From an uncultured Actinomycetes bacterium (GTDB lineage: Bacteria; Actinomycetota; Actinomycetes; Nanopelagicales; Nanopelagicaceae), in contig CAILHY010000028.1 of NCBI GenBank assembly GCA_903834145.1, positions 30,325-65,591 on the forward strand: a DNA stretch of 35,267 nucleotides. The letters run 5' to 3'. The first letter of the stretch is position 1; each line of letters starts with the position of its first letter. A program made the translations under genes and the position numbers. Shown piece after piece: positions 9,277 through 35,267 of the stretch. The notes under the pieces were generated by a model, which searched no databases, had not been told where the DNA came from, and saw only the letters and a list, made by a program, of their open reading frames with translations.

Positions 9277-10139
9277 ACTTCGCTCGATTTTCTGCTGGCA
9301 AAATAGGATCCAACGAGCACCATAGGTAATCCGATCCCGATTCCAAGAGTCAAGGGCTCGGACAAGAAGAGCACTCCGAGAATGACTGCGAAGGCTGTGT
9401 TGAGATAAGTGACCAGCGAGGCCCGCGCCGCGCCGATTTCGTTCAAGACAATAAAGAAAACAATAAAGGCAAGTGCGGTACATACGACACCTAAAACAAG
9501 CAGGGCGAAAATTGCGCTAAATGCAACGTGATGTTTTGGCCATTGGAGGGCAGCAAACGGGGAGTAGATGACAGCGGTAATCGACATGGCTAGTGCATTA
9601 ATTGCGATCCCTGAAACTCCGGGTAGGGCGCGAGTAACCATAATCACCGCGAAGGCATATCCGATTGCAGAAACCAGTACGAAAGCAATTGCCCATAGTG
9701 GGCTTGTCCCTGAGAAGCTTTCGATGCCAACGAGAGCGATAATCCCGATAAATCCGATGAGTATTCCTGCAAGGCGCTTGGGATGCCAGACTGTTTTGTC
9801 TCCATACATTGCGGTGAAAACTGATGACCAAATAGGTGTTGTTGCCACTAAGAGGCCAGTAAGTCCTGAGGGAATTCTGGTTTCAGCTTTCGTAATGAAA
9901 AACCATGGACCGATCATCTCGCACAGCGCATAGAGGAAAACATATTTAAAGCCTTTGAGCGCCGCTCTAAATGATTTCTGATGCAAGGAGATGGGAATCA
10001 GGATTGCCGCCCCAATGATCACGCGAGCAAAAACAATGAATGCGGGACTGAAATCTCGAACTGCTATGCGAATGAAGAGGTATGGAATTCCCCACATGAG
10101 ACCAGCGCTAAGAAAGAGGAGCCAATTGCGGCGTGACAT
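9273..10139 (-). CDS. DMT superfamily transporter (EamA family)
   Basis: A 288-residue protein with ten predicted membrane segments in two EamA repeats (about 5-135 and 148-282), with PSGLTGLLVATTPIWSSVF and ALVTYLNTAFAVILGVLFL-type repeat ends. EamA proteins export or take up amino acids, purines or drugs; the substrate cannot be told. It lies 21 nt downstream of glgM/glgA on the same strand and may be co-transcribed with it. Its TAG stop overlaps the era TAA. Confidence 0.85.
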   Translation of the reverse strand: MSRRNWLLFLSAGLMWGIPYLFIRIAVRDFSPAFIVFARVIIGAAILIPISLHQKSFRAALKGFKYVFLYALCEMIGPWFFITKAETRIPSGLTGLLVATTPIWSSVFTAMYGDKTVWHPKRLAGILIGFIGIIALVGIESFSGTSPLWAIAFVLVSAIGYAFAVIMVTRALPGVSGIAINALAMSITAVIYSPFAALQWPKHHVAFSAIFALLVLGVVCTALAFIVFFIVLNEIGAARASLVTYLNTAFAVILGVLFLSEPLTLGIGIGLPMVLVGSYFASRKSSEV

Positions 10140-10160
10140 GAAGTGTGATTCCCTTATTCG

Positions 10161-11321
10161 TTACTGCAGGACTTTGGCATAAAGCTCGATGGTTGCAGTT
10201 GCAACGCTTTCCCATCCAAATTCATTTTCGGCGCGTGCTCTTCCGGCTTTGCCGTAACTAGCGAGCAACCCGGGATTTTCCATCAGTCTAATAATTGCCT
10301 GCGTCCATCGCTCTTCTAATGCAACAGCATCAGAGGAGTACGGGATTAGTTCACCAGTAATTCCATCGGCTACGACTTCTGGAATTCCTCCAATTGCTGA
10401 TGCAAGCACGGCGGTTTGACATCCCATCGCTTCAAGGTTGACGATACCCAAGGGCTCATAGATGGATGGGCAGAGGAAGAGATCAGCAGCCGTTAAGACT
10501 GCAGTGAGTTCATCGTGGGGCATCATTTTTTCTACCCACCAAATATTCTTGCGTGTTCGTTGAAGTTCGTGAATCAAAGTCGCAATCTCTTCACCGATTG
10601 CGGGTTCATCAGGGCTTCCCGCAGCGATCACTAGACCGTATTCGCTCGGTACGTTCTGCCATGCGCGCAATAAATGAGCCAATCCTTTTTGGCGAGTAAT
10701 GCGCCCAACGAATAGGGCGAATCGACCCGTGATTCCGTATTTTTCTAGCGCATCGGTGTTCTGATTTGGGGTGAACTTAGATGTATCGACCCCATTTCTT
10801 ATCGTCACCACTTTGCTTGGGTCCACATCAGGATAAGCGGCTAAAACATCCCTGCGCATGCCATCGCTCACAGCAATGACCGCAGCTGCGCTATGGATTG
10901 CAGTCTGCTCGATCCACGATGAAAGTCGATATCCGCCACCGAGTTGTTCGGCTTTCCAAGGACGTAGCGGTTCGAGGGAATGCGCACTCATGACATGGGG
11001 GATTGCATGGAGTTGAGAGGCAAGATGTCCTGCCATATTGGCGTACCAGGTATGAGTATGTACCACGTCAACGCCCGAGAGGGCTTGGGCTATTTCCAAA
11101 TCTGTGCCGATTGCTTGAATGGCTGGGTTCGCCATTGTGAATTCCGAGCGAACGGGGAAACTTTTTGCATCTGCGCGGGGTTCGCCGAAACAGAAAACGT
11201 CGACATTGATATTTTCTTTTTTCGAAAGGGCTTGTGCCAACTGGACTACGTGGACGCCGGCACCGCCATACACATGCGGAGGCCATTCCTTGGTGACGAG
11301 TCCAACGTTAATGAGTGGCAA
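10161..11321 (-). CDS. glgM: GT4 glucosyltransferase, GlgM (alpha-maltose-1-phosphate synthase) / actinobacterial glycogen synthase
   Basis: A 386-residue retaining GT-B glycosyltransferase. It has the N-terminal TKEWPPHVYGGAGVHV acceptor loop, the nucleotide-sugar site FVGRITRQKGLAHLL and the E-x7-E motif in SIYEPLGIVNLEAMG. Length and divergent pairing with glgC match Mycobacterium Rv1212c, first called glgA and later shown to be GlgM, which makes maltose-1-phosphate from ADP-glucose and glucose-1-phosphate. A plain ADP-glucose glycogen synthase role is the alternative; a glgE elsewhere in the genome would favour GlgM. The start is TTG, with GGGGAG 5 nt upstream. Confidence 0.85.
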   Translation of the reverse strand: MPLINVGLVTKEWPPHVYGGAGVHVVQLAQALSKKENINVDVFCFGEPRADAKSFPVRSEFTMANPAIQAIGTDLEIAQALSGVDVVHTHTWYANMAGHLASQLHAIPHVMSAHSLEPLRPWKAEQLGGGYRLSSWIEQTAIHSAAAVIAVSDGMRRDVLAAYPDVDPSKVVTIRNGVDTSKFTPNQNTDALEKYGITGRFALFVGRITRQKGLAHLLRAWQNVPSEYGLVIAAGSPDEPAIGEEIATLIHELQRTRKNIWWVEKMMPHDELTAVLTAADLFLCPSIYEPLGIVNLEAMGCQTAVLASAIGGIPEVVADGITGELIPYSSDAVALEERWTQAIIRLMENPGLLASYGKAGRARAENEFGWESVATATIELYAKVLQ

Positions 11322-26717: not shown

Positions 26718-27343
26718 TGCTCTCTTTTAATGAATTTGCCGCACAATGGAGTGCCTTGCATGGTGGCGCACAAACCACTGGCATCGTTGGTGGTTGGCTC
26801 CGTATTTCTTTTGCCCTAGCAAAGATATTAGGTGCACTACGAATTTCACCGAATGCCTTAACACTTCTTGGATTGCTTAGCGCTGGTGCAACCGCGTTGA
26901 GTGGAAGACATTGGAGTGCAGGGATATTTCTTCTTTTTTCACTGATGTGTGATGGCGTCGATGGAAGTGTTGCCATCATTCAAAATCGCGCAAGTTCGTG
27001 GGGTGCAACGTTAGACGCCGTTGCAGATCGCATCTCAGAGGCGCTGTGGGCTGTTACCTTCTATCGACTCGGGGTTCCGCTGAGCTGGGTCTTAGCACTC
27101 GCATCCTTAGCCGCTTTTCAAGAGTACTCACGAGCGAAATTGATCTCTGATGGCGTTAAGGAAATTGGACTTGTTACTCCAGCAGAACGTCCTGTGCGAG
27201 CAATTTTTCTCTTCATCGCGATCATCGCTTGGAACATCCATGCCACTCGTGATGGAGTGATTCATATTGCCCAGGCACTTACCGCCCTGCAAGGGATAAG
27301 TTTCGCGATGCTTCTTAAGTTCGCTTACCTGCGATTGCGTTAG
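26717..27343 (+). CDS. CDP-alcohol phosphatidyltransferase family protein
   Basis: A 208-residue membrane protein with about five to six helices. The catalytic motif D-x2-D-G-x2-A-R-x8-G-x3-D-x3-D is present as D79, D82-G83, A86, G96, D100 and D104, so all four metal-binding Asp residues are kept, but the usual Arg after Ala86 is Ile87. The family makes phospholipids such as phosphatidylglycerol-phosphate, phosphatidylinositol-phosphate or cardiolipin from CDP-diacylglycerol; the acceptor cannot be read here. I chose ATG 26717 for its coupling to metF (TGATG). The last 29 nt overlap the convergent desaturase gene. Confidence 0.85.
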   Translation: MLSFNEFAAQWSALHGGAQTTGIVGGWLRISFALAKILGALRISPNALTLLGLLSAGATALSGRHWSAGIFLLFSLMCDGVDGSVAIIQNRASSWGATLDAVADRISEALWAVTFYRLGVPLSWVLALASLAAFQEYSRAKLISDGVKEIGLVTPAERPVRAIFLFIAIIAWNIHATRDGVIHIAQALTALQGISFAMLLKFAYLRLR

Positions 27344-28820
27344 CAACGATCTCCGCGCTTATTCCTACTAGCGGCAATCCACCTCCTGGATGTGCGGAAC
27401 CGCCAACGCAATAAAGTCCCTTTAGCGGTGAACGATTGCGTGCACGCAGAAATGCTGAACGCGCACCGTTGCTAGAGGTTCCATAGATAGATCCACCTGG
27501 TGCCCGCACCTGGGCTTCCAAATCTGCTGGCGTGCGAATCTCCAGTACTTCGAGGCGATCCCGGATAGAAATTCCACGAGACTCGATGAGAGAGATAATT
27601 TTGTTCGCGTATTCGTGTGCAAAGTTCGCATCATTCCAATTCCAACCTGTACCACTTTCAGAATGCGGGGGAGCATTGACAAGCACCGACCAACTTTCAT
27701 GTCCTTGGGTCGGCATCATTGCAGGATCCTTTGGAGAGCATATATAGATGGTCGGATCATCGACAGGTTTCTTTTGCGTGAAGATGGCATCAAACTCATC
27801 ATCGTAATTGACGGGAAACAGAACGGTGTGATGCGCCAACGGCTGAGCTTCGGGCGATGGCTTAAGTCCTAGGAGCAGCGAGAAACCAGCCAATGACGGT
27901 TCTGCTTGAGCAAGAGCTTTGCGAGGCTTTCGAAGGATACGAAGTCTTTCACTGATGAGAGTCGTGTAGACATAGGAAGCATCTGCATTTGCCACAACAA
28001 CATCGGCAAGAATCGTCTCACCTGTAGATAAAACTATTCCAGTTACTGATTTTGCGGTGTGAGAAATCTTTGCCACTGGCGAATCAAGGTGAAAAGTAAC
28101 GCCGCATTCAATGGCTCTTTGATGTACAGCACGTGCCAGCTGACCTATCCCGCCAGAAATATGCCAAGCACCGAATGCTTCTTCAACATAAGCGATGGAT
28201 GCGAGTACTGCCGGCGCTCTACGCGGATCAGATCCACTATAGGTGGCATATCGGTCAATGATGCATTGAAGTCGTACGTCAGTAGTGTATTCCTTCACCA
28301 ATGTTCGCAAAGATTTCCATGGAGCAATAGTCAAGAGATCTTTGAGGAGGGATGCGCGTTTGAGCAGAGATAAAGGTGATGCTAATTCTGATTCGATAAA
28401 TGGTTCGCGAGAAACATCCCACATTTTTTCGGCACGTCTCATGATGGATCGCCACTCATCTTTAGCTTGGCTTCCGAAAGATTTTTCGATTGCCTCTAGA
28501 GTGTCGTAACGCGAAAGATTGACAAACTCCACGTTACTGCCATCGGCAAATCTATAGTCAAAGGAGGGGTTCACTGCTTGGAGGCTCAGGACTTCTTCAA
28601 GAGGTTTGCCAGTCTTAAGGAAAAAATCTTTATAGACAGCAGGAAGTGTTAACAAAGATGGTCCAGTATCAAATGCATACTTACCTACCCATTCGGTGCG
28701 ACATTTTCCACCCACTTCATAAGAAGCTTCGTAGAGGTGCACCGAGTGACCTGCTTTGGCTAATCGAGTTGCTGCGCACATTCCACCGATGCCCGCACCG
28801 ATCACAACCACGTTGCTCAT
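27315..28820 (-). CDS. CrtI-family carotenoid desaturase, CrtD-like
   Basis: A 501-residue FAD enzyme of the CrtI/CrtD family: VVVIGAGIGGMCAATRLA at the start, FDTGPSLLTLPAVY, and HISGGIGQLARAVH. The C-terminal block has GGSIYG, then GLYCVGGSAHPGGGLPLVGISAE, closer to CrtD (hydroxycarotenoid 3,4-desaturase) than to phytoene desaturases. I infer a 3',4'-desaturase acting after CruF. The start ATG 28820 overlaps the glycosyltransferase stop (ATGA) and has GGAAAGG upstream; an in-frame ATG at 28838 is less likely. Last gene of its operon. A ketolase-type CrtO/CrtP role is a less likely alternative. Confidence 0.85.
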   Translation of the reverse strand: MSNVVVIGAGIGGMCAATRLAKAGHSVHLYEASYEVGGKCRTEWVGKYAFDTGPSLLTLPAVYKDFFLKTGKPLEEVLSLQAVNPSFDYRFADGSNVEFVNLSRYDTLEAIEKSFGSQAKDEWRSIMRRAEKMWDVSREPFIESELASPLSLLKRASLLKDLLTIAPWKSLRTLVKEYTTDVRLQCIIDRYATYSGSDPRRAPAVLASIAYVEEAFGAWHISGGIGQLARAVHQRAIECGVTFHLDSPVAKISHTAKSVTGIVLSTGETILADVVVANADASYVYTTLISERLRILRKPRKALAQAEPSLAGFSLLLGLKPSPEAQPLAHHTVLFPVNYDDEFDAIFTQKKPVDDPTIYICSPKDPAMMPTQGHESWSVLVNAPPHSESGTGWNWNDANFAHEYANKIISLIESRGISIRDRLEVLEIRTPADLEAQVRAPGGSIYGTSSNGARSAFLRARNRSPLKGLYCVGGSAHPGGGLPLVGISAEIVANAIAGKRT

Positions 28821-29878
28821 ACCAATCGGCCTTTCCATTGAGTGCGACCCCGCATCATCCAGGAGCGCCCGAGAAGATAGATCAACAGCGCAATGGAGAG
28901 TGGGTGCAAGAGCACATCAAAGATTCGTGCCCGGGTAGCCAGAGCGCTGACAAGACGTGAAGAAATGAGGATGAAGTATCCGAAAACTCCAATGGTTAAG
29001 GGAGCTATCCCTACCGCAATAAGAAATACCACGGCGATGATGGAACCAATGTGCGATCCAAATGCAACCCGTAGCGATTTACTGTAACCCTCTCGCAACT
29101 CTGGCCAGGATGCATACATTCGGCAAGTTGCAATATCAGAGCCATCGATTACCGTCCCTTTAAAACCTTGGCGAAGAAATACTCGGGCCAGTGCGATGTC
29201 ATCGATAATTTCTGACCTCACCGAGGCAAAGCCGCCGACTGCTTCTAAGGCAGATCGTTCAGCTATGAAAAACTGACCATTTGCCACGGCAAAGGCAGGA
29301 TTGCTTGATCGCTCAGCAATTGCAAGTGGCACCGTGGACATCCACGACCATTGCAAAAGAGGTTGGATGAGACGTTCAGACCATGAGATCGCAATTTGAC
29401 GCGGGTAGGCCGAAGCGAAAGCAAGTTTTCTAGATTTCATCAGATTGATCGCGCTTACAAGTGCATCTGCGTGCAGGCGCACGTCGGCGTCAATAACCAC
29501 CACTATTTCGCTGGTCGTTGCTGTGAGCCCTTGATGTAGGGCAAATGGTTTGCCGAGCCAGCCACTAAGTAATGTTTCACCGATTCTTATTGAGAATCGA
29601 GCATCATCTTTAATGGATTCATTAATGAGCTCGAAAGTATTGTCAGTCGAGCCATCATCGATAAATAGGAAAGTTAGATCGGATATTCCCATTTGTTTAC
29701 GTAAAGATTCGACCAATGCAGGAATATTCGCTTCCTCATTGCGGACCGGGAGCAAGACCGCTACGGACCCAGGAAAGAGAGCGGACTCTTTCAGCGGCCG
29801 ACGTAAGGAAAAGAAATTTGCGCAGGAAATAAAGAGTAAGAGAGTGGGTAGTGCAATCACGAGTGCTGCAAGATTCAC
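28817..29878 (-). CDS. family 2 glycosyltransferase, probable carotenoid glycosyltransferase (CruG-like)
   Basis: A 353-residue GT-A enzyme with an N-terminal membrane helix (about 3-22). The nucleotide-sugar motifs are VLLPVRNEE (41-49) and FIDDGSTDN (72-80), with the metal-binding DAD at 130-132, and three C-terminal membrane helices. Set between cruF-like and crtD-like genes, it most likely glycosylates a hydroxyl on the open end of the carotenoid. I prefer GTG 29878: TAAGGA, formed by the cruF stop, gives a Shine-Dalgarno about 7 nt before it. An ATG at 29920 would overlap cruF by 32 nt. Confidence 0.85.
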   Translation of the reverse strand: MNLAALVIALPTLLLFISCANFFSLRRPLKESALFPGSVAVLLPVRNEEANIPALVESLRKQMGISDLTFLFIDDGSTDNTFELINESIKDDARFSIRIGETLLSGWLGKPFALHQGLTATTSEIVVVIDADVRLHADALVSAINLMKSRKLAFASAYPRQIAISWSERLIQPLLQWSWMSTVPLAIAERSSNPAFAVANGQFFIAERSALEAVGGFASVRSEIIDDIALARVFLRQGFKGTVIDGSDIATCRMYASWPELREGYSKSLRVAFGSHIGSIIAVVFLIAVGIAPLTIGVFGYFILISSRLVSALATRARIFDVLLHPLSIALLIYLLGRSWMMRGRTQWKGRLV

Positions 29879-29888
29879 GGCGTAATCC

Positions 29889-30692
29889 TTAAGGTCGCCC
29901 AAGCCAGCGGGTAAATCCATACGGTGCGTAAATGGCTGCGAAGATTAACCCGGCGAAGATACCGATGAGAGGTCGATGAAAGAAGAAGATATTGCCAATG
30001 ACTCCGGCAAAGAATGTCCACACTAGAAAAAAATCTACAACAGTGGATTCTGCCCCACCTTTTCTTCGTTCACGAGGAAGAGCAACATTGAGGAGCGCGA
30101 TGAGTCCCATGCCTGCAAATAGCCAACCTGCTGCATTGGAAATCGGTATCTCTCGTTCAAATGGAATTCCAGATCCGATATCCGACCATATCCATCGATG
30201 AGCACTCACCATTTGCGGATCAAGAAAGAGGTCCCATGCCATAAGGGCTAATCCGCCATAGAGGAAAACCCAATTCTTTGTAATGCGTCTTGCTGCCATC
30301 AAAATCGGGTGTGCCATCATCACCCATGCAAAGGGCACAACCAACGGAACTTTGTAAATTTGGTAGGCCAAACTCGGATCGTAGGAATAGGTTCCAAATG
30401 GCCAACCGGTGCGGACTCCCATTTGTTCGATGGCTAATCCGTATGCGAAGGTGATGAGCAGATACGAAATTGAGTAACGCCAACCATAAGATAAATAAGC
30501 ATGCACCACCATGAGCGAGGCAGCGAAGTAGACCGTCGCCAACGTAACAAGGCGCAATGATTCACCGTGAATGAGCGGGTAACTTATTTGAAGTGCGATG
30601 GAACCTATAAGCAAGAGGGTCAGAAAGAGTTGCGAACGGGGAGAAATCCCACGACGCTTATGCCTGCGGGGAGAGTACTGGCGCATCGACAC
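29889..30692 (-). CDS. cruF: CruF-like carotenoid 1,2-hydratase (DUF422)
   Basis: A 267-residue integral membrane protein with seven to eight helices. Family blocks are visible: GVRTGWPFGTYSYDPSLAY, VPLVVPFAWVMMAHP, WDLFLDPQMV and GIPFER...NAAGW. CruF and haloarchaeal bisanhydrobacterioruberin hydratases add water across the C-1,2 double bond of a psi end group. It lies 34 nt after the crtA-like gene. The start is GTG 30692 or the in-frame ATG 30686; neither has a convincing Shine-Dalgarno. Its stop supplies part of the glycosyltransferase ribosome site. Confidence 0.9.
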   Translation of the reverse strand: MSMRQYSPRRHKRRGISPRSQLFLTLLLIGSIALQISYPLIHGESLRLVTLATVYFAASLMVVHAYLSYGWRYSISYLLITFAYGLAIEQMGVRTGWPFGTYSYDPSLAYQIYKVPLVVPFAWVMMAHPILMAARRITKNWVFLYGGLALMAWDLFLDPQMVSAHRWIWSDIGSGIPFEREIPISNAAGWLFAGMGLIALLNVALPRERRKGGAESTVVDFFLVWTFFAGVIGNIFFFHRPLIGIFAGLIFAAIYAPYGFTRWLGRP

Positions 30693-30726
30693 GGCGCTAA
30701 GTCTGCCCTATTGCCTGGCCTAATTC

Positions 30727-31392
30727 TTACAGATCTCCTCGGATTTCCTTTACTTGGAAACGGGCGAAGAGATCTTCTGTGAACCATTTCTCTCGTGATG
30801 TAGCCATGATGGCCTCTTTATGAGCAGGGGATTTGTACGCAAAGTTTTTCAATGACTCCTGCGAATCCCAGAGGGAGAAAGTGCCCTGCAGGCCAATCGG
30901 TGCTTCACCGACGCCAATTGCTGAGATCAGCCCAGGGGATTGGCGCAAACTGTGTGCGATGGGCGGAACGGATTTCCAAAAAGCTAGATTCTTTCGCCAA
31001 GTAATTCGTGCTCGAGTTATTGCGACAATCTTTGAAGAGAATTCTTGCTCTGGAACGACGACTTTAAAAGGTTCACGTTTGGACCATTGACCATGAGAGG
31101 AGATTGGTTGCATCAGCACGCGGAACTCATCCGATGACCTGCTGCGCCATCGCTGGACTAATGGTGACGAGTCGAATTTCTCCAATTGCGAATCCTCGAT
31201 ACAGATCAACATGCCCCACCGGTGAATATCCGCGTCCGATGGTGTGAATGTTGCACCCTTTCCGCAGCCCAACATTTTCGCAAATGAAATACCTTGTGCG
31301 CTTCGGAGTCGCCTGCGATCCACAGCCATAGACCAGAGAGCAAAGGGAATTACACGAGAAGGGACTTTCCAAAAATATACTGCAGTGATCAC
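30727..31392 (-). CDS. CrtA-like carotenoid oxygenase (spheroidene monooxygenase family)
   Basis: A 221-residue protein with the CrtA family core: GISFAKMLGCGKGATF (34-49), FTPSDADIHRWGML (49-62), a GQWSKREPF segment near 101 and a second half repeating the ferredoxin-like barrel (TRARI, PGLISAIGVGEAPIGLQGTFSLW). CrtA of purple bacteria adds a 2-keto group to acyclic carotenoids. A related flavobacterial enzyme is a 2'-hydroxylase in myxol synthesis. I place the start at GTG 31392, which forms a GTGA overlap with the hydrolase stop and has GGAAAAG upstream. The open frame extends to 31521 only by running into the hydrolase gene. Confidence 0.87.
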   Translation of the reverse strand: MITAVYFWKVPSRVIPFALWSMAVDRRRLRSAQGISFAKMLGCGKGATFTPSDADIHRWGMLICIEDSQLEKFDSSPLVQRWRSRSSDEFRVLMQPISSHGQWSKREPFKVVVPEQEFSSKIVAITRARITWRKNLAFWKSVPPIAHSLRQSPGLISAIGVGEAPIGLQGTFSLWDSQESLKNFAYKSPAHKEAIMATSREKWFTEDLFARFQVKEIRGDL

Positions 31393-32186
31393 GAAACTTT
31401 TCCAGTGGTACGAAGAATTTCCGCAACAACTTCGTTGGGGTGATCCCACATCGGAGCGTGCCCAGAATCGGGAAGGATTATCCAGCGAGAATGATCTGGT
31501 AGCAGAGAGCGCTCCTGGCATGTTGCAGCAGGCAAAGTATTATCTGAGTCTCCGAAGATGACAGTTACAGGAATAGAAACATCAACGCGAGAATCAAATC
31601 TCTTCTTGAGCATTGCATCCCAGGCAGGGTAGTAGCCGGCCGACTTGCCCATGGCATCAGAGGCGTCTTTGCATATTTCATAGGAAAAGTTTCGCCATAG
31701 CGGGCTGACATTTTCAAAACCAATTTTGCGCGCCCATTCGTAATGCATCAATAAAGGTGAAACCACTTTCAAAGAACTTGCCAGCATGCGTGCAATAGCA
31801 GTTCCGGGATATCGCGCCGTAAAGGGTTCAAGCCATAATCCGGCAGGTGCCAGACCAGTTACAGACTTAATCGCAGCAGGTTTCATCGCTGCAATCTCCA
31901 AAGAAATCCACCCACCGAGCGAGTTTCCGACAACATCAAATCGATCAAATCCAAGCTCATGCATCGTTTCCAAAACCGTAATGGCAAGCCCTTTTGGATC
32001 CATCGGTTGGCTGGTATCCATCGGTGTTTCACCGTGTCCAGGTAGGTCAATGGTTATGACAGAAAAATGCTCATTAAGTTGGGCAATGATCGGTTTCCAT
32101 GCCGTAGCCGCCGACCCCATTCCATGGATGAGCAACAAGGGGTCGGGGTGGGCAGTAGACGGATATACCGAGGATGTGAGAAGCAT
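31389..32186 (-). CDS. alpha/beta hydrolase in carotenoid operon
   Basis: A 265-residue alpha/beta-hydrolase fold protein. The oxyanion segment is HGMGSAATAW (21-30), and the nucleophile elbow is GNSLGG (87-92, Ser89). The acid is Asp213 or Asp215 in FGDSDN, and the catalytic His243 lies in DSGHAPMW. The triad is complete, so it is probably an active esterase, lipase or acyltransferase-like enzyme. The substrate is unknown. As the first long gene of the crtA-cruF-GT2-crtD operon, it may act on a carotenoid ester or glycoside acyl group. Its ATG directly follows the TAA of a seven-codon leader ORF. Confidence 0.85.
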   Translation of the reverse strand: MLLTSSVYPSTAHPDPLLLIHGMGSAATAWKPIIAQLNEHFSVITIDLPGHGETPMDTSQPMDPKGLAITVLETMHELGFDRFDVVGNSLGGWISLEIAAMKPAAIKSVTGLAPAGLWLEPFTARYPGTAIARMLASSLKVVSPLLMHYEWARKIGFENVSPLWRNFSYEICKDASDAMGKSAGYYPAWDAMLKKRFDSRVDVSIPVTVIFGDSDNTLPAATCQERSLLPDHSRWIILPDSGHAPMWDHPNEVVAEILRTTGKVS

Positions 32187-32210
32187 TTACGAGCAAGCCA
32201 ACCGGTTCAT
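32187..32210 (-). CDS. seven-codon leaderless leader ORF before the hydrolase
   Basis: On the minus strand an ATG at 32210 opens a micro-ORF encoding MNRLACS, then TAA, and the next codon is the hydrolase ATG (TAAATG). A perfect-looking -10, TACAAT, ends six bases before this ATG, so the transcript would begin on the micro-ORF start. The hydrolase itself has no Shine-Dalgarno, so its translation may depend on ribosomes re-initiating after the leader peptide. Chance occurrence cannot be excluded without comparing relatives. Confidence 0.4.
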   Translation of the reverse strand: MNRLACS

Positions 32211-32222
32211 ACACGGATTGTA
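32211..32222 (-). promoter_or_regulatory. leaderless promoter of the second carotenoid operon
   Basis: TACAAT (32222 to 32217, minus strand) fits TANNNT and is followed by six bases, CCGTGT, and the ATG of the micro-ORF at 32210. This is the only -10-like site found before the five-gene operon. Confidence 0.5.
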
Positions 32223-32237
32223 CATTCCCCGTTAATC

Positions 32238-32259
32238 TTTGCCCGTTAATATGGGCAAA
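32238..32259 (+). promoter_or_regulatory. palindromic operator centred on the -10 of the aquaporin-arsC operon
   Basis: Perfect 7-bp arms TTTGCCC (32238-32244) and GGGCAAA (32253-32259) flank eight bases that contain the -10 hexamer TAATAT (32247-32252). Transcription would start near 32259. A repressor bound here would block RNA polymerase directly. CCCGTTAAT also occurs twice, 14 bases apart (32228-32236 and 32242-32250). No ArsR-type gene is in the window. Confidence 0.5.
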
Positions 32260-32307
32260 TCAGAACGCGCACTTAATCATCAAATTCTGGCACACGGGAA
32301 GGTTCTG

Positions 32308-32973
32308 ATGAAGAAGATTCTTGCAGAATTCCTCGGCACCATGGTCTTAGTTTCCGCGGTTGTTGGATCAGGAATTATGGCGCAGAATCTCACGCGTGAT
32401 GTTGGTCTTCAACTCCTGATCAATGCTTTCTCCACAATTGCGGCTCTGTGGTTGCTCATACTTCTTTTTTCTCCGGTGAGCGGTGCACATTTCAACCCCG
32501 TGGTTACCCTTTCAGAAATATTCTTTAAACGAATTTCATGGTCTCTATCTTTAGCCTATGTAAGTGCCCAATTACTCGGCGGGTTTGTCGGAACAATTAT
32601 GGCAAATGTCATGTTTAAACATCCAGCCATATTTCCATCACACCATATTCGAAGTGGCGCAGGGCTTTTCCTGGGAGAGATCCTCGCCACTGCAGGTCTG
32701 CTTTTCCTGATTCATATGCTGGGATTTCAAGGTAGATCTCATATCACTCCCGTAGCGGTTGCCTTATGGATTGGTTCGGCTTATTTCTTTACCTCCTCCA
32801 CCTCTTTTGCAAACCCTGCCGTTACCTTTGCAAGGGCTTTTAGCAATACATTTTCTGGGATCTCTATCTCCAGCGTTCCTGGATTTGTGTTGGCGCAGAT
32901 CGTAGGAGCAACTATTGGAACAATCGCTGCACTCTACTTTGGAAAAACTTCGACAGGAGAAATTAATGGATAA
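32308..32973 (+). CDS. MIP family aquaporin/aquaglyceroporin, likely arsenic-linked (AqpS-like)
   Basis: A 221-residue six-helix channel with both half-helix signatures: HFNPVVT (61-67), where NPV replaces the first NPA, and FANPAVTFAR in the second half, including the pore Arg. Aquaglyceroporins next to arsC let arsenite, made by arsenate reduction, leave the cell (AqpS in Sinorhizobium). ATG 32308 is chosen for its GGGAAGG 5 nt upstream; the TTG at 32239 lies in the operator. The end overlaps arsC by 8 nt, supporting a joint role. Confidence 0.9.
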   Translation: MKKILAEFLGTMVLVSAVVGSGIMAQNLTRDVGLQLLINAFSTIAALWLLILLFSPVSGAHFNPVVTLSEIFFKRISWSLSLAYVSAQLLGGFVGTIMANVMFKHPAIFPSHHIRSGAGLFLGEILATAGLLFLIHMLGFQGRSHITPVAVALWIGSAYFFTSSTSFANPAVTFARAFSNTFSGISISSVPGFVLAQIVGATIGTIAALYFGKTSTGEING

Positions 32974-33367
32974 GAAACCAACGGTCCTCTTTGTTTGCGT
33001 ACACAATGCCGGACGTTCGCAAATGGCAGCAGGTTTCATGCGCGAACTCTCGCAAGGCGCAGTAGAAGTGCTTTCCGCAGGATCTGCACCAAAAGATTCG
33101 ATTAACCCCGTTGCTGTTGAAGCGATGCTCGAAGTGGGTATAGACATCGCACACTATGTTCCAAAAGTTCTTACCACGGAGGCCGTGCTCGAGTCCGATG
33201 CAGTTGTCACAATGGGGTGCGGAGATGCATGTCCGTTCTATCCTGGCAAGCGTTATGAAGACTGGGTACTGGATGATCCTGCGGGGCAAGGCATTGAGTC
33301 TGTGCGTGTCATACGAGATGACATCAAAGCTCGCGTAGAAAAGTTATTAGCAGAGTTGTTGGCTTAA
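32966..33367 (+). CDS. arsC: arsenate reductase, low-molecular-weight phosphatase type
   Basis: A 133-residue ArsC of the LMW protein-tyrosine-phosphatase fold. The P-loop is CVHNAGRSQ (Cys11, Arg17), and further cysteines Cys85 and Cys89 lie in MGCGDACPFYPGKRYEDW. DDPAGQG is also typical. It reduces arsenate to arsenite, with thioredoxin or, as in Corynebacterium, mycothiol as partner; the sequence does not decide. AGGAG precedes ATG 32966. It is coupled to the aquaporin gene. Confidence 0.93.
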   Translation: MDKKPTVLFVCVHNAGRSQMAAGFMRELSQGAVEVLSAGSAPKDSINPVAVEAMLEVGIDIAHYVPKVLTTEAVLESDAVVTMGCGDACPFYPGKRYEDWVLDDPAGQGIESVRVIRDDIKARVEKLLAELLA

Positions 33368-33376
33368 CTGGTAATA

Positions 33377-33392
33377 GGTGTTGAATAACACC
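33377..33392 (+). terminator. hairpin after arsC, weak terminator candidate
   Basis: GGTGTT (33377-33382) and AACACC (33387-33392) form a perfect 6-bp stem with a GAAT loop, 9 nt after the arsC stop. No T-run follows, so intrinsic termination is doubtful. Confidence 0.35.
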
Positions 33393-33394
33393 GA

Positions 33395-33428
33395 AATAGC
33401 AAGCGTTTGTTTGTGGAGTTCTGCTATT
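33395..33428 (+). promoter_or_regulatory. inverted repeat upstream of the ABC exporter promoter
   Basis: AATAGCA (33395-33401) and TGCTATT (33422-33428) are 7-bp inverted arms 20 bases apart. They end 9 nt before the -10 TAATAT. This could be an operator for a dimeric regulator or simply chance. Confidence 0.25.
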
Positions 33429-33437
33429 CCAAAAGCG

Positions 33438-33449
33438 TAATATGGACGC
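33438..33449 (+). promoter_or_regulatory. leaderless promoter of the ABC exporter genes
   Basis: TAATAT (33438-33443) is followed by six bases, GGACGC, and ATG at 33450. No Shine-Dalgarno is present. Confidence 0.6.
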
Positions 33450-34151
33450 ATGGCAGTAGCGATCGAGTTCGATAAGCTCACAAAAGAATATGACGGCGTA
33501 CTTGCCGTGGATGAGTTGTCTGCGTCTATCGAATCTGGTCGAATCACGGGGTTTCTTGGGCCTAATGGGGCTGGTAAAAGTACGGCTCTGAGATGTTTAT
33601 TAGGTTTGGCCAAACCTACTTCTGGTTCTGCGTTGATCGAAGGTTCGACTTACGGAAGTTTGCTCAAACCACTCCAAAGAGTCGGCGCCGTTATTGATTC
33701 TGCTGGTTTTCATGGGTCACTCAGTGCGCAGAGGAATCTCCTTATTATTTGCGCCGCAGCAGAAATTCCAGATCTGCGAGTGATGGAGGTTCTCACGATG
33801 GTAGATCTTGAAGACTCCGTGAATAAGAAAGTTAAAGAGTTTTCCTTGGGAATGAAGCAGAGGTTATCCCTTGCCGCTGCGCTCTTGAGCGATCCAGATA
33901 TCTTGATATTGGATGAACCAGCCAATGGACTTGACCCCATCGGTATAGCTTGGTTGCGCGATTTGCTGAGAAGTTTGGCGCAATCTGGAAAGACCGTGTT
34001 GGTTTCATCCCATCAGTTGGCTGAAATGCAGAACTCGGTTGATGATGTCCTAGTCATCAATAAGGGAAAACTTATTGTTGCTGGTCAGATTGACGAGGTT
34101 CGTCAGGGACAAAGTCTTGAAGAAGCATTTCTAAGGTACGTGCAACGATGA
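33450..34151 (+). CDS. ABC transporter ATP-binding protein (ABC-2 exporter type)
   Basis: A 233-residue nucleotide-binding subunit with Walker A GPNGAGKST (37-45), signature FSLGMKQRL (131-139), Walker B ILILDEP (151-157) and the switch His in SSHQLAEM. The signature starts SLGMK rather than LSGGQ, usual for bacitracin-type (BcrA-like) exporters. It forms a complex with the permease encoded next, with which it overlaps by 4 nt (ATGA). The cargo is unknown; lipids, peptides or drugs are typical. Confidence 0.93.
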   Translation: MAVAIEFDKLTKEYDGVLAVDELSASIESGRITGFLGPNGAGKSTALRCLLGLAKPTSGSALIEGSTYGSLLKPLQRVGAVIDSAGFHGSLSAQRNLLIICAAAEIPDLRVMEVLTMVDLEDSVNKKVKEFSLGMKQRLSLAAALLSDPDILILDEPANGLDPIGIAWLRDLLRSLAQSGKTVLVSSHQLAEMQNSVDDVLVINKGKLIVAGQIDEVRQGQSLEEAFLRYVQR

Positions 34152-34936
34152 ATCTATTTAAATCAGAGTTACGAAAAGTTTTGTATACAAAGACTTTCCG
34201 GTTATCGATTCTCGGGGCAACTTTTATCTCTTTGCTTTCATCCATACCAAGCCCATATATAACTCAACAAGCAGGTGGCTTGATTCAAAATGCTTCCTTC
34301 ATGAACCCAGAAATCATCAACGGCCTATATTCCAAAGCGCTGGCAGGATATTTATTCAGTGCGATATTTGGCGTGATTTTGATGGCTGGTGAATTCAAGG
34401 AGATGACCGCGGTTCGGACTTTCCTCGCCTCCCCAAAGCGAATTCATGTGGTCTATTCCAAGTTAGTGATTGCTGTTCTTGGCGGGGCCATAATCATGCT
34501 GATCTCGACAACACTCGGAGCGGTAGGTGCCTATTTTGCTTTGAAACATTATCCGCATACAGCGCCAACGAGTTCTATGCTCCCAACGCTTTTAGGGGAT
34601 GCCTTGCTCACCGGGGCTTCCATAGGGGTCTTAGGGTTGGCCGTTGGAACGTTGATTAGAAATCAAAATATTGCAGTAACGGGAACGATCATTTACTTGT
34701 ACATAGTGGAGCGAATGATCGTTCTATTTTGGTCCACTGGTGGCAAGTGGCTACCTTCAGGATTGTTAACCGCGATGATGAACGTCAATGTGAAGATTTC
34801 ATCGAAAATAGGCGGCTTCAACTACGACCCGAGTAATTACCTGAAACCCACTTATGCAGCGATGCTTTTAGTTGGCTATTCGGTTATTGCTGGTGCGATA
34901 GCAATCAAGGTTTCGCTCAGTCGGGATATTGACTAA
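34148..34936 (+). CDS. ABC-2 type transporter permease
   Basis: A 262-residue membrane subunit with about six helices: a first helix near 18-38, an extracytoplasmic loop of about 35 residues (Gln- and Asn-rich), then GYLFSAIFGVILMAGEFKEMTAVRTFLASPKR, which is the coupling segment typical of ABC-2 permeases. It pairs with the upstream ATPase and is its only evident partner. No substrate-binding protein follows. Confidence 0.87.
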   Translation: MNLFKSELRKVLYTKTFRLSILGATFISLLSSIPSPYITQQAGGLIQNASFMNPEIINGLYSKALAGYLFSAIFGVILMAGEFKEMTAVRTFLASPKRIHVVYSKLVIAVLGGAIIMLISTTLGAVGAYFALKHYPHTAPTSSMLPTLLGDALLTGASIGVLGLAVGTLIRNQNIAVTGTIIYLYIVERMIVLFWSTGGKWLPSGLLTAMMNVNVKISSKIGGFNYDPSNYLKPTYAAMLLVGYSVIAGAIAIKVSLSRDID

Positions 34937-34961
34937 AACGTGTAGTTGGCTTTGCTACCGC

Positions 34962-34982
34962 CTCAAAGTTCGTCGATTTGAG
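34962..34982. terminator. weak hairpin between convergent genes
   Basis: CTCAAA (34962-34967) and TTTGAG (34977-34982) form a 6-bp stem with a 9-nt loop in the 58-nt gap between the permease gene and the YbaK-type gene. A short CTTT follows on the plus strand. This is weak evidence for a two-way terminator. Confidence 0.25.
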
Positions 34983-34994
34983 CTTTCATAAGCG

Positions 34995-35267
34995 CTACTC
35001 TCCGACAATCATTGGCTGTGCACCAGTAACTCGAACTAACTCTTCAAAGGTTGTTGGATACACCGCGTGAGGGTGTCCCGCTGCGGCCCACACCACTTCG
35101 TAATCGTTTAACGCTTCATCAATAAGGATTATTTCTGGCTTTGAAATCCACCCTAATGGGCTCACGCCCCCTGTAGTTTCTGAAACCAGAGCCACGAAAT
35201 TATTTCGCACAATTGGCTTGAGCTGTGTAGATATAGCTCTGATTCCATGTGAGGGAAAGTGGTCGTG
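34995..35267 (-). CDS. YbaK/prolyl-tRNA editing domain protein, 5' end beyond window
   Basis: The minus-strand frame stays open to the last base, so the gene begins right of the window. The visible 90 residues match the C-terminal part of the YbaK/ProX deacylase fold: ETTGGVSPLGW, then PEIILIDEAL, VVWAAAGHPHAVYPTTFEELVRVTGA. These enzymes remove wrongly attached amino acids from tRNA (Cys or Ala from tRNA-Pro). Which substrate applies here cannot be told. The GTG at 35210 is internal. Confidence 0.85.
   Translation of the reverse strand, partial: HDHFPSHGIRAISTQLKPIVRNNFVALVSETTGGVSPLGWISKPEIILIDEALNDYEVVWAAAGHPHAVYPTTFEELVRVTGAQPMIVGE

Follow-up and report, generated by a model that had tools for sequence, protein, structure and literature searches.

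A predicted leaderless micro-ORF abutting the first gene of a carotenoid tailoring operon is probably lineage-specific and either incidental or a passive ribosome loader

Does a seven-codon reading frame that ends exactly where a carotenoid gene begins help to translate that gene, or did it arise by chance at a promoter placed close to the start codon? The question is raised by the window, a stretch of 35,267 nucleotides from the genome of an uncultured freshwater actinobacterium (G000). On the minus strand of the window, the -10-like element TACAAT (32222-32217, within GATTAACggggAATGTACAATC at 32216-32237) is followed by the 6-nt spacer CCGTGT (32216-32211), the micro-ORF ATGAACCGGTTGGCTTGCTCGTAA (32210-32187) and, at 32186, the ATG of the hydrolase. 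In the frame of the hydrolase, the micro-ORF encodes MNRLACS, and its TAA (32189-32187) abuts the hydrolase ATG with a gap of 0 nt. Overlaps or very short gaps are described as a requirement of translational coupling (as outlined in PMC10666635), and the pair matches the geometry expected of genes coupled by termination-reinitiation. The sequence-only reading had described this arrangement letter for letter, and had proposed that the hydrolase could depend on the micro-ORF and that the micro-ORF might act as a cysteine attenuator.

The hydrolase is an alpha/beta hydrolase of 265 amino acids (31389-32186, minus strand; Pfam Abhydrolase_6, 1.1e-23). Orthologs in the genus begin at the same residue and have N-termini of equal length, which supports the assigned start. 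The shared start residue also rules out that the micro-ORF is a mis-called N-terminal extension or the outcome of a recent nonsense mutation, and both ideas are further opposed by the genome G009, where an in-frame TAA likewise lies just before the hydrolase start. Downstream of the hydrolase are genes for a CrtA-like monooxygenase, a CruF-like protein (PF04240), a CruG-like glycosyltransferase and a CrtI/CrtD-family desaturase (27315-31395, minus strand). The name carotenoid tailoring operon, headed by the hydrolase, is therefore fair by homology, with NCBIfam scores of the carotenoid genes below the equivalog cut-offs and TIGR02734 as the sole exception. The proposed absence of a Shine-Dalgarno sequence before the hydrolase was borne out, the best pairing to the 3' end of the 16S rRNA being -3.6 kcal/mol at CGGTTGGC.

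Background rates were taken from a 738-kb sample of G000 (42% of the genome, which comprises 1.75 Mb on 33 contigs; GC 0.487 in the first sample), drawn as stretches and annotated with a simple gene caller. TANNNT occurs 6 nt before 66 of the 626 called starts in these 738 kb and 7 nt before another 24, compared to about 5 at other spacings. This accumulation indicates that leaderless starts are common in G000, as they are reported to be in Actinobacteria generally (PMC9581028). The 6-nt spacing between TACAAT and the micro-ORF ATG coincides with the leaderless peak of the genome. The pattern GATTAACNNNNAATGTACAATC was found once in G000, once in G009 and nowhere else among 21 genomes of the genus, and its distance to the hydrolase start is 30 nt in both. 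The TACAAT promoter, which among relatives only G009 keeps, is probably real because the 30-nt distance is identical. The uniqueness of GATTAACNNNNAATGTACAATC and its fixed position in G009 tie the promoter to the hydrolase start and not to the micro-ORF. The leaderless geometry is thus supported by both the genome-wide spacing signature and the promoter conserved in G009, and the -10 spacing predicts that transcription begins at A32210 or an adjacent base.

The region between the operon and its divergent neighbor has additional features. The conserved core AATGTACAATC (32216-32237) is nearly symmetric and carries -10-like hexamers on both strands, TACAAT on the minus and TACATT on the plus strand, and may therefore drive transcription in both directions, toward the hydrolase and toward the aquaporin gene. 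The latter encodes a MIP-family channel (32308-32973, plus strand) with a GGAAGG Shine-Dalgarno sequence and is followed by an arsenate reductase gene (32969-33367). A perfect inverted repeat, TTTGCCC-8-GGGCAAA at 32238-32259, lies just upstream of the promoter together with a direct repeat, ATTAACGGG, and is a possible operator; the inverted repeat is not kept in G009. TGTACA was considered as a regulator site, but its count in the window is close to expectation (6 against 4.0) and the longer conserved motif occurs at this locus only, so that a regulon is not supported. The slot from the carotenoid operon to the gene at 34995 (32187-34995) holds an arsenic cassette whose efflux gene differs between genomes, the cassette consisting of a MIP channel and arsC in G000, G009 and G007, and of an ACR3-type permease and arsC in G020; an ACR3-type permease also occupies the slot in G013. 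An ABC transporter pair (33450-34936 in G000) is absent from G009. The gene at 34995 resembles a YbaK-type deacylase by eye and had no NCBIfam match.

We suggest that the locus is most likely a promoter with a short leader in which the transcript happens to begin with ATG, and that the lineage-specific micro-ORF is either incidental or a passive ribosome loader. Transcription of the operon from TACAAT, which lies 30 nt upstream of the hydrolase start, would give a leader of about 24 nt. For leaderless initiation, mycobacteria require an RTG at the transcript 5' end, which is also sufficient (PMC4633059). The AUG would therefore very likely be used if the transcript starts at A32210, and the micro-ORF is probably translated. 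70S ribosomes would probably initiate at the 5' ATG, read MNRLACS and stop at TAA. Because reinitiation is possible where a stop and a start abut, some hand-over of ribosomes is plausible, and a fraction might restart at once on the hydrolase ATG through termination-reinitiation. Other ribosomes would probably begin directly at the hydrolase ATG, which has no Shine-Dalgarno sequence and would be unstructured; the leader is less structured than shuffled sequences (z +1.95). The micro-ORF would not be under selection as a peptide or sensor, and would provide passive ribosome delivery at most. In Mycobacterium tuberculosis, 28.8% of leaderless RTGs open unannotated ORFs (PMC4633059), and translation of such ORFs is pervasive and mostly without purifying selection (PMC9094748).

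Genome-wide counts are consistent with an incidental origin. In the G000 sample, 310 genes have 60 nt or more of same-strand space upstream. Leaderless upstream ORFs show no excess among them, unlike in mycobacteria, the RTGs of upstream ORFs following TANNNT at spacings 6 and 7 in 7 and 8 cases, respectively, against about 6.4 per spacing. The co-occurrence of micro-ORF and promoter is hence at chance level. Three look-alike sites in the sample (L133, L058 and L129) were rejected as micro-ORFs because they have no stop before the called start, and they are interpreted as leaderless starts that were mis-called. A further possible leaderless upstream ORF of the same genome lies in L067, where TAGAGT-7-GTG before the gene at 9952-10911 opens VMGVK, which ends 4 nt inside the next gene.

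Relatives retain the promoter in part and the micro-ORF not at all. In G009, whose hydrolase is 75% identical and has the same divergent aquaporin-arsC neighbors, an ATG 7 nt after the -10 element opens MRAGVGCKCD, an out-of-frame ORF that extends 10 nt into the hydrolase. The hydrolase of G009 starts with GTG and is preceded by a Shine-Dalgarno sequence, AGGGGTGG (-9.6 kcal/mol). A hand count without gaps gave 14 of 30 matching positions between the 30-nt leaders of G000 and G009, with the upstream ATG shifted by one base. In G007, which shares the divergent layout, TATGAT-6-GTG opens MLADLLCIFASRCS, which overlaps the hydrolase start (L009, 50 bases before 1449); this TATGAT lies at a different distance from the hydrolase and is one of several competing TANNNT sites. 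The two closest hydrolase orthologs, G013 (84% identical) and G020 (79%), have TAGAAT nine bases before the hydrolase ATG and the ACR3-type permease instead of the aquaporin upstream of the hydrolase. In both, the hydrolase start is retained without the micro-ORF, a combination that the sequence-only reading had itself named as speaking against its proposal. In other members of the genus, the hydrolase mostly lies behind other genes, without such a structure. No TAA-abutting micro-ORF precedes the hydrolase in the family-level divergent loci L102-L104. The 114-bp upstream region has no DNA relatives in the genus beyond its own genome, the other matches being at chance level (E 0.16 or worse), and no match was found among viral contigs. 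Peptide, frame and stop position of the micro-ORF are not conserved in any ortholog examined. Of the -10/ATG/TAAATG pattern proposed for comparison across relatives, the promoter is thus kept in G009, and the abutting in-frame micro-ORF in none. Conservation of the leaderless upstream ORF architecture, a mark of function if not a strictly defining one, was likewise not observed in these relatives. In all three genomes of the genus with the divergent layout (G000, G009 and G007), an RTG lies at the 5' end predicted for the transcript and opens an ORF with at least one Cys codon.

The main alternative is that the leaderless micro-ORF was selected to recruit 70S ribosomes and to hand them over at TAA|ATG, with the hydrolase dependent on this supply. 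The combination of leaderless spacing, a stop-start gap of zero and a missing Shine-Dalgarno sequence fits such a role, and the exact abutment would also fit selected coupling as a counterpoint to the incidental reading. A parallel is provided by M. tuberculosis, in which leaderless small ORFs that end at the next start are in excess, their architecture being conserved and their peptide not (PMC4633059). However, the closest orthologs do without the micro-ORF, leaderless upstream ORFs are not enriched genome-wide, and the ORF in G009 overlaps the hydrolase instead of abutting it and precedes a good Shine-Dalgarno sequence. Starts that are neither leaderless nor preceded by a Shine-Dalgarno sequence make up 306 of 625 in the G000 sample, a class inflated by start errors of the crude caller. 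Such starts are common without any upstream ORF, so by that argument the hydrolase needs no special help. Dependence of hydrolase translation on the micro-ORF is hypothetical, also given that G009 combines the same promoter with its own Shine-Dalgarno sequence, and we regard selected loading as a possible but rather unlikely explanation. The RTG at the predicted 5' end in G009, and possibly in G007, is a further counterpoint to the incidental reading, and some selection for a 5'-terminal RTG is possible. Carotenoid-operon promoters of this freshwater lineage might keep such an RTG for leaderless loading while peptide, frame and stop drift, the stop in G000 now abutting a Shine-Dalgarno-less gene that depends on reinitiation. 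This extended scenario appears improbable to us.

It is similarly doubtful that the transcript starts elsewhere and that the micro-ORF is an internal run of triplets that never forms a 5' end. Upstream of TACAAT, no -35 element matches TTGACA (three of six positions at 17 nt, read by eye), and the operon may have a distal promoter within the aquaporin gene. Yet the leaderless promoters of the G000 sample also have no TTGACA signal, and the 130 nt preceding the hydrolase contain no TANNNT other than TACAAT, whose distance is the same in G009. A cysteine-responsive attenuator like the mycobacterial polycysteine leaderless small ORFs is highly implausible: the Cys codon near the end of the micro-ORF (ACS before the stop) and the two Cys codons in each of the ORFs of G009 (GCKCD) and G007 (LCIFASRCS) would suit it, but the Cys codon of MNRLACS is single where contiguous ones would be expected, no stable hairpin forms (z +0.5 to +1.95, the leader folding less than shuffled sequences), no spacer separates stop and start to hold a structure, the operon is of carotenoid genes with no cysteine- or sulfur-related gene, and the closest orthologs have no micro-ORF, so the attenuator proposal fails on geometry, structure and context.

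With these alternatives weighed, the incidental or passively loading micro-ORF has several partial counterparts among known systems. The leaderless small upstream ORFs of mycobacteria (Shell et al. 2015, PMC4633059) share the predicted 5' RTG, the tiny ORF ending at an annotated gene start and the actinobacterial host. They differ in having an RTGA overlap where G000 has an abutting TAA|ATG, and the case described here is a sequence-based prediction, is not enriched in its genome and is absent from its closest relatives. Polycysteine leaderless attenuators (Canestrari et al. 2020, as cited in PMC9031893) are alike in placing a short, leaderless, Cys-containing ORF before an operon, whereas the present ORF has one non-contiguous Cys, no structured spacer and a carotenoid operon downstream. 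The 5'-terminal AUG of E. coli ptrB (Beck and Janssen 2017, as cited in PMC9031893) is comparable because a 5' AUG in the leader could recruit ribosomes for the downstream gene; here, the predicted 5' AUG starts a complete ORF of seven codons that abuts the gene. Gene pairs with termination-reinitiation (as outlined in PMC6728339 and PMC10666635) likewise have an adjacent stop and start on one mRNA, whereas in G000 the first ORF has just seven codons and the coupling is putative.

If the dependence of the hydrolase on the micro-ORF were true, the locus would represent a very short natural ribosome-loading ORF. It would also show that the coupling of leaderless upstream ORFs, known from mycobacteria, occurs in streamlined freshwater actinobacteria as well. 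For now, the locus mainly illustrates how frequent leaderless starts are in this genome and how a 5'-terminal ATG can originate by chance at a promoter.
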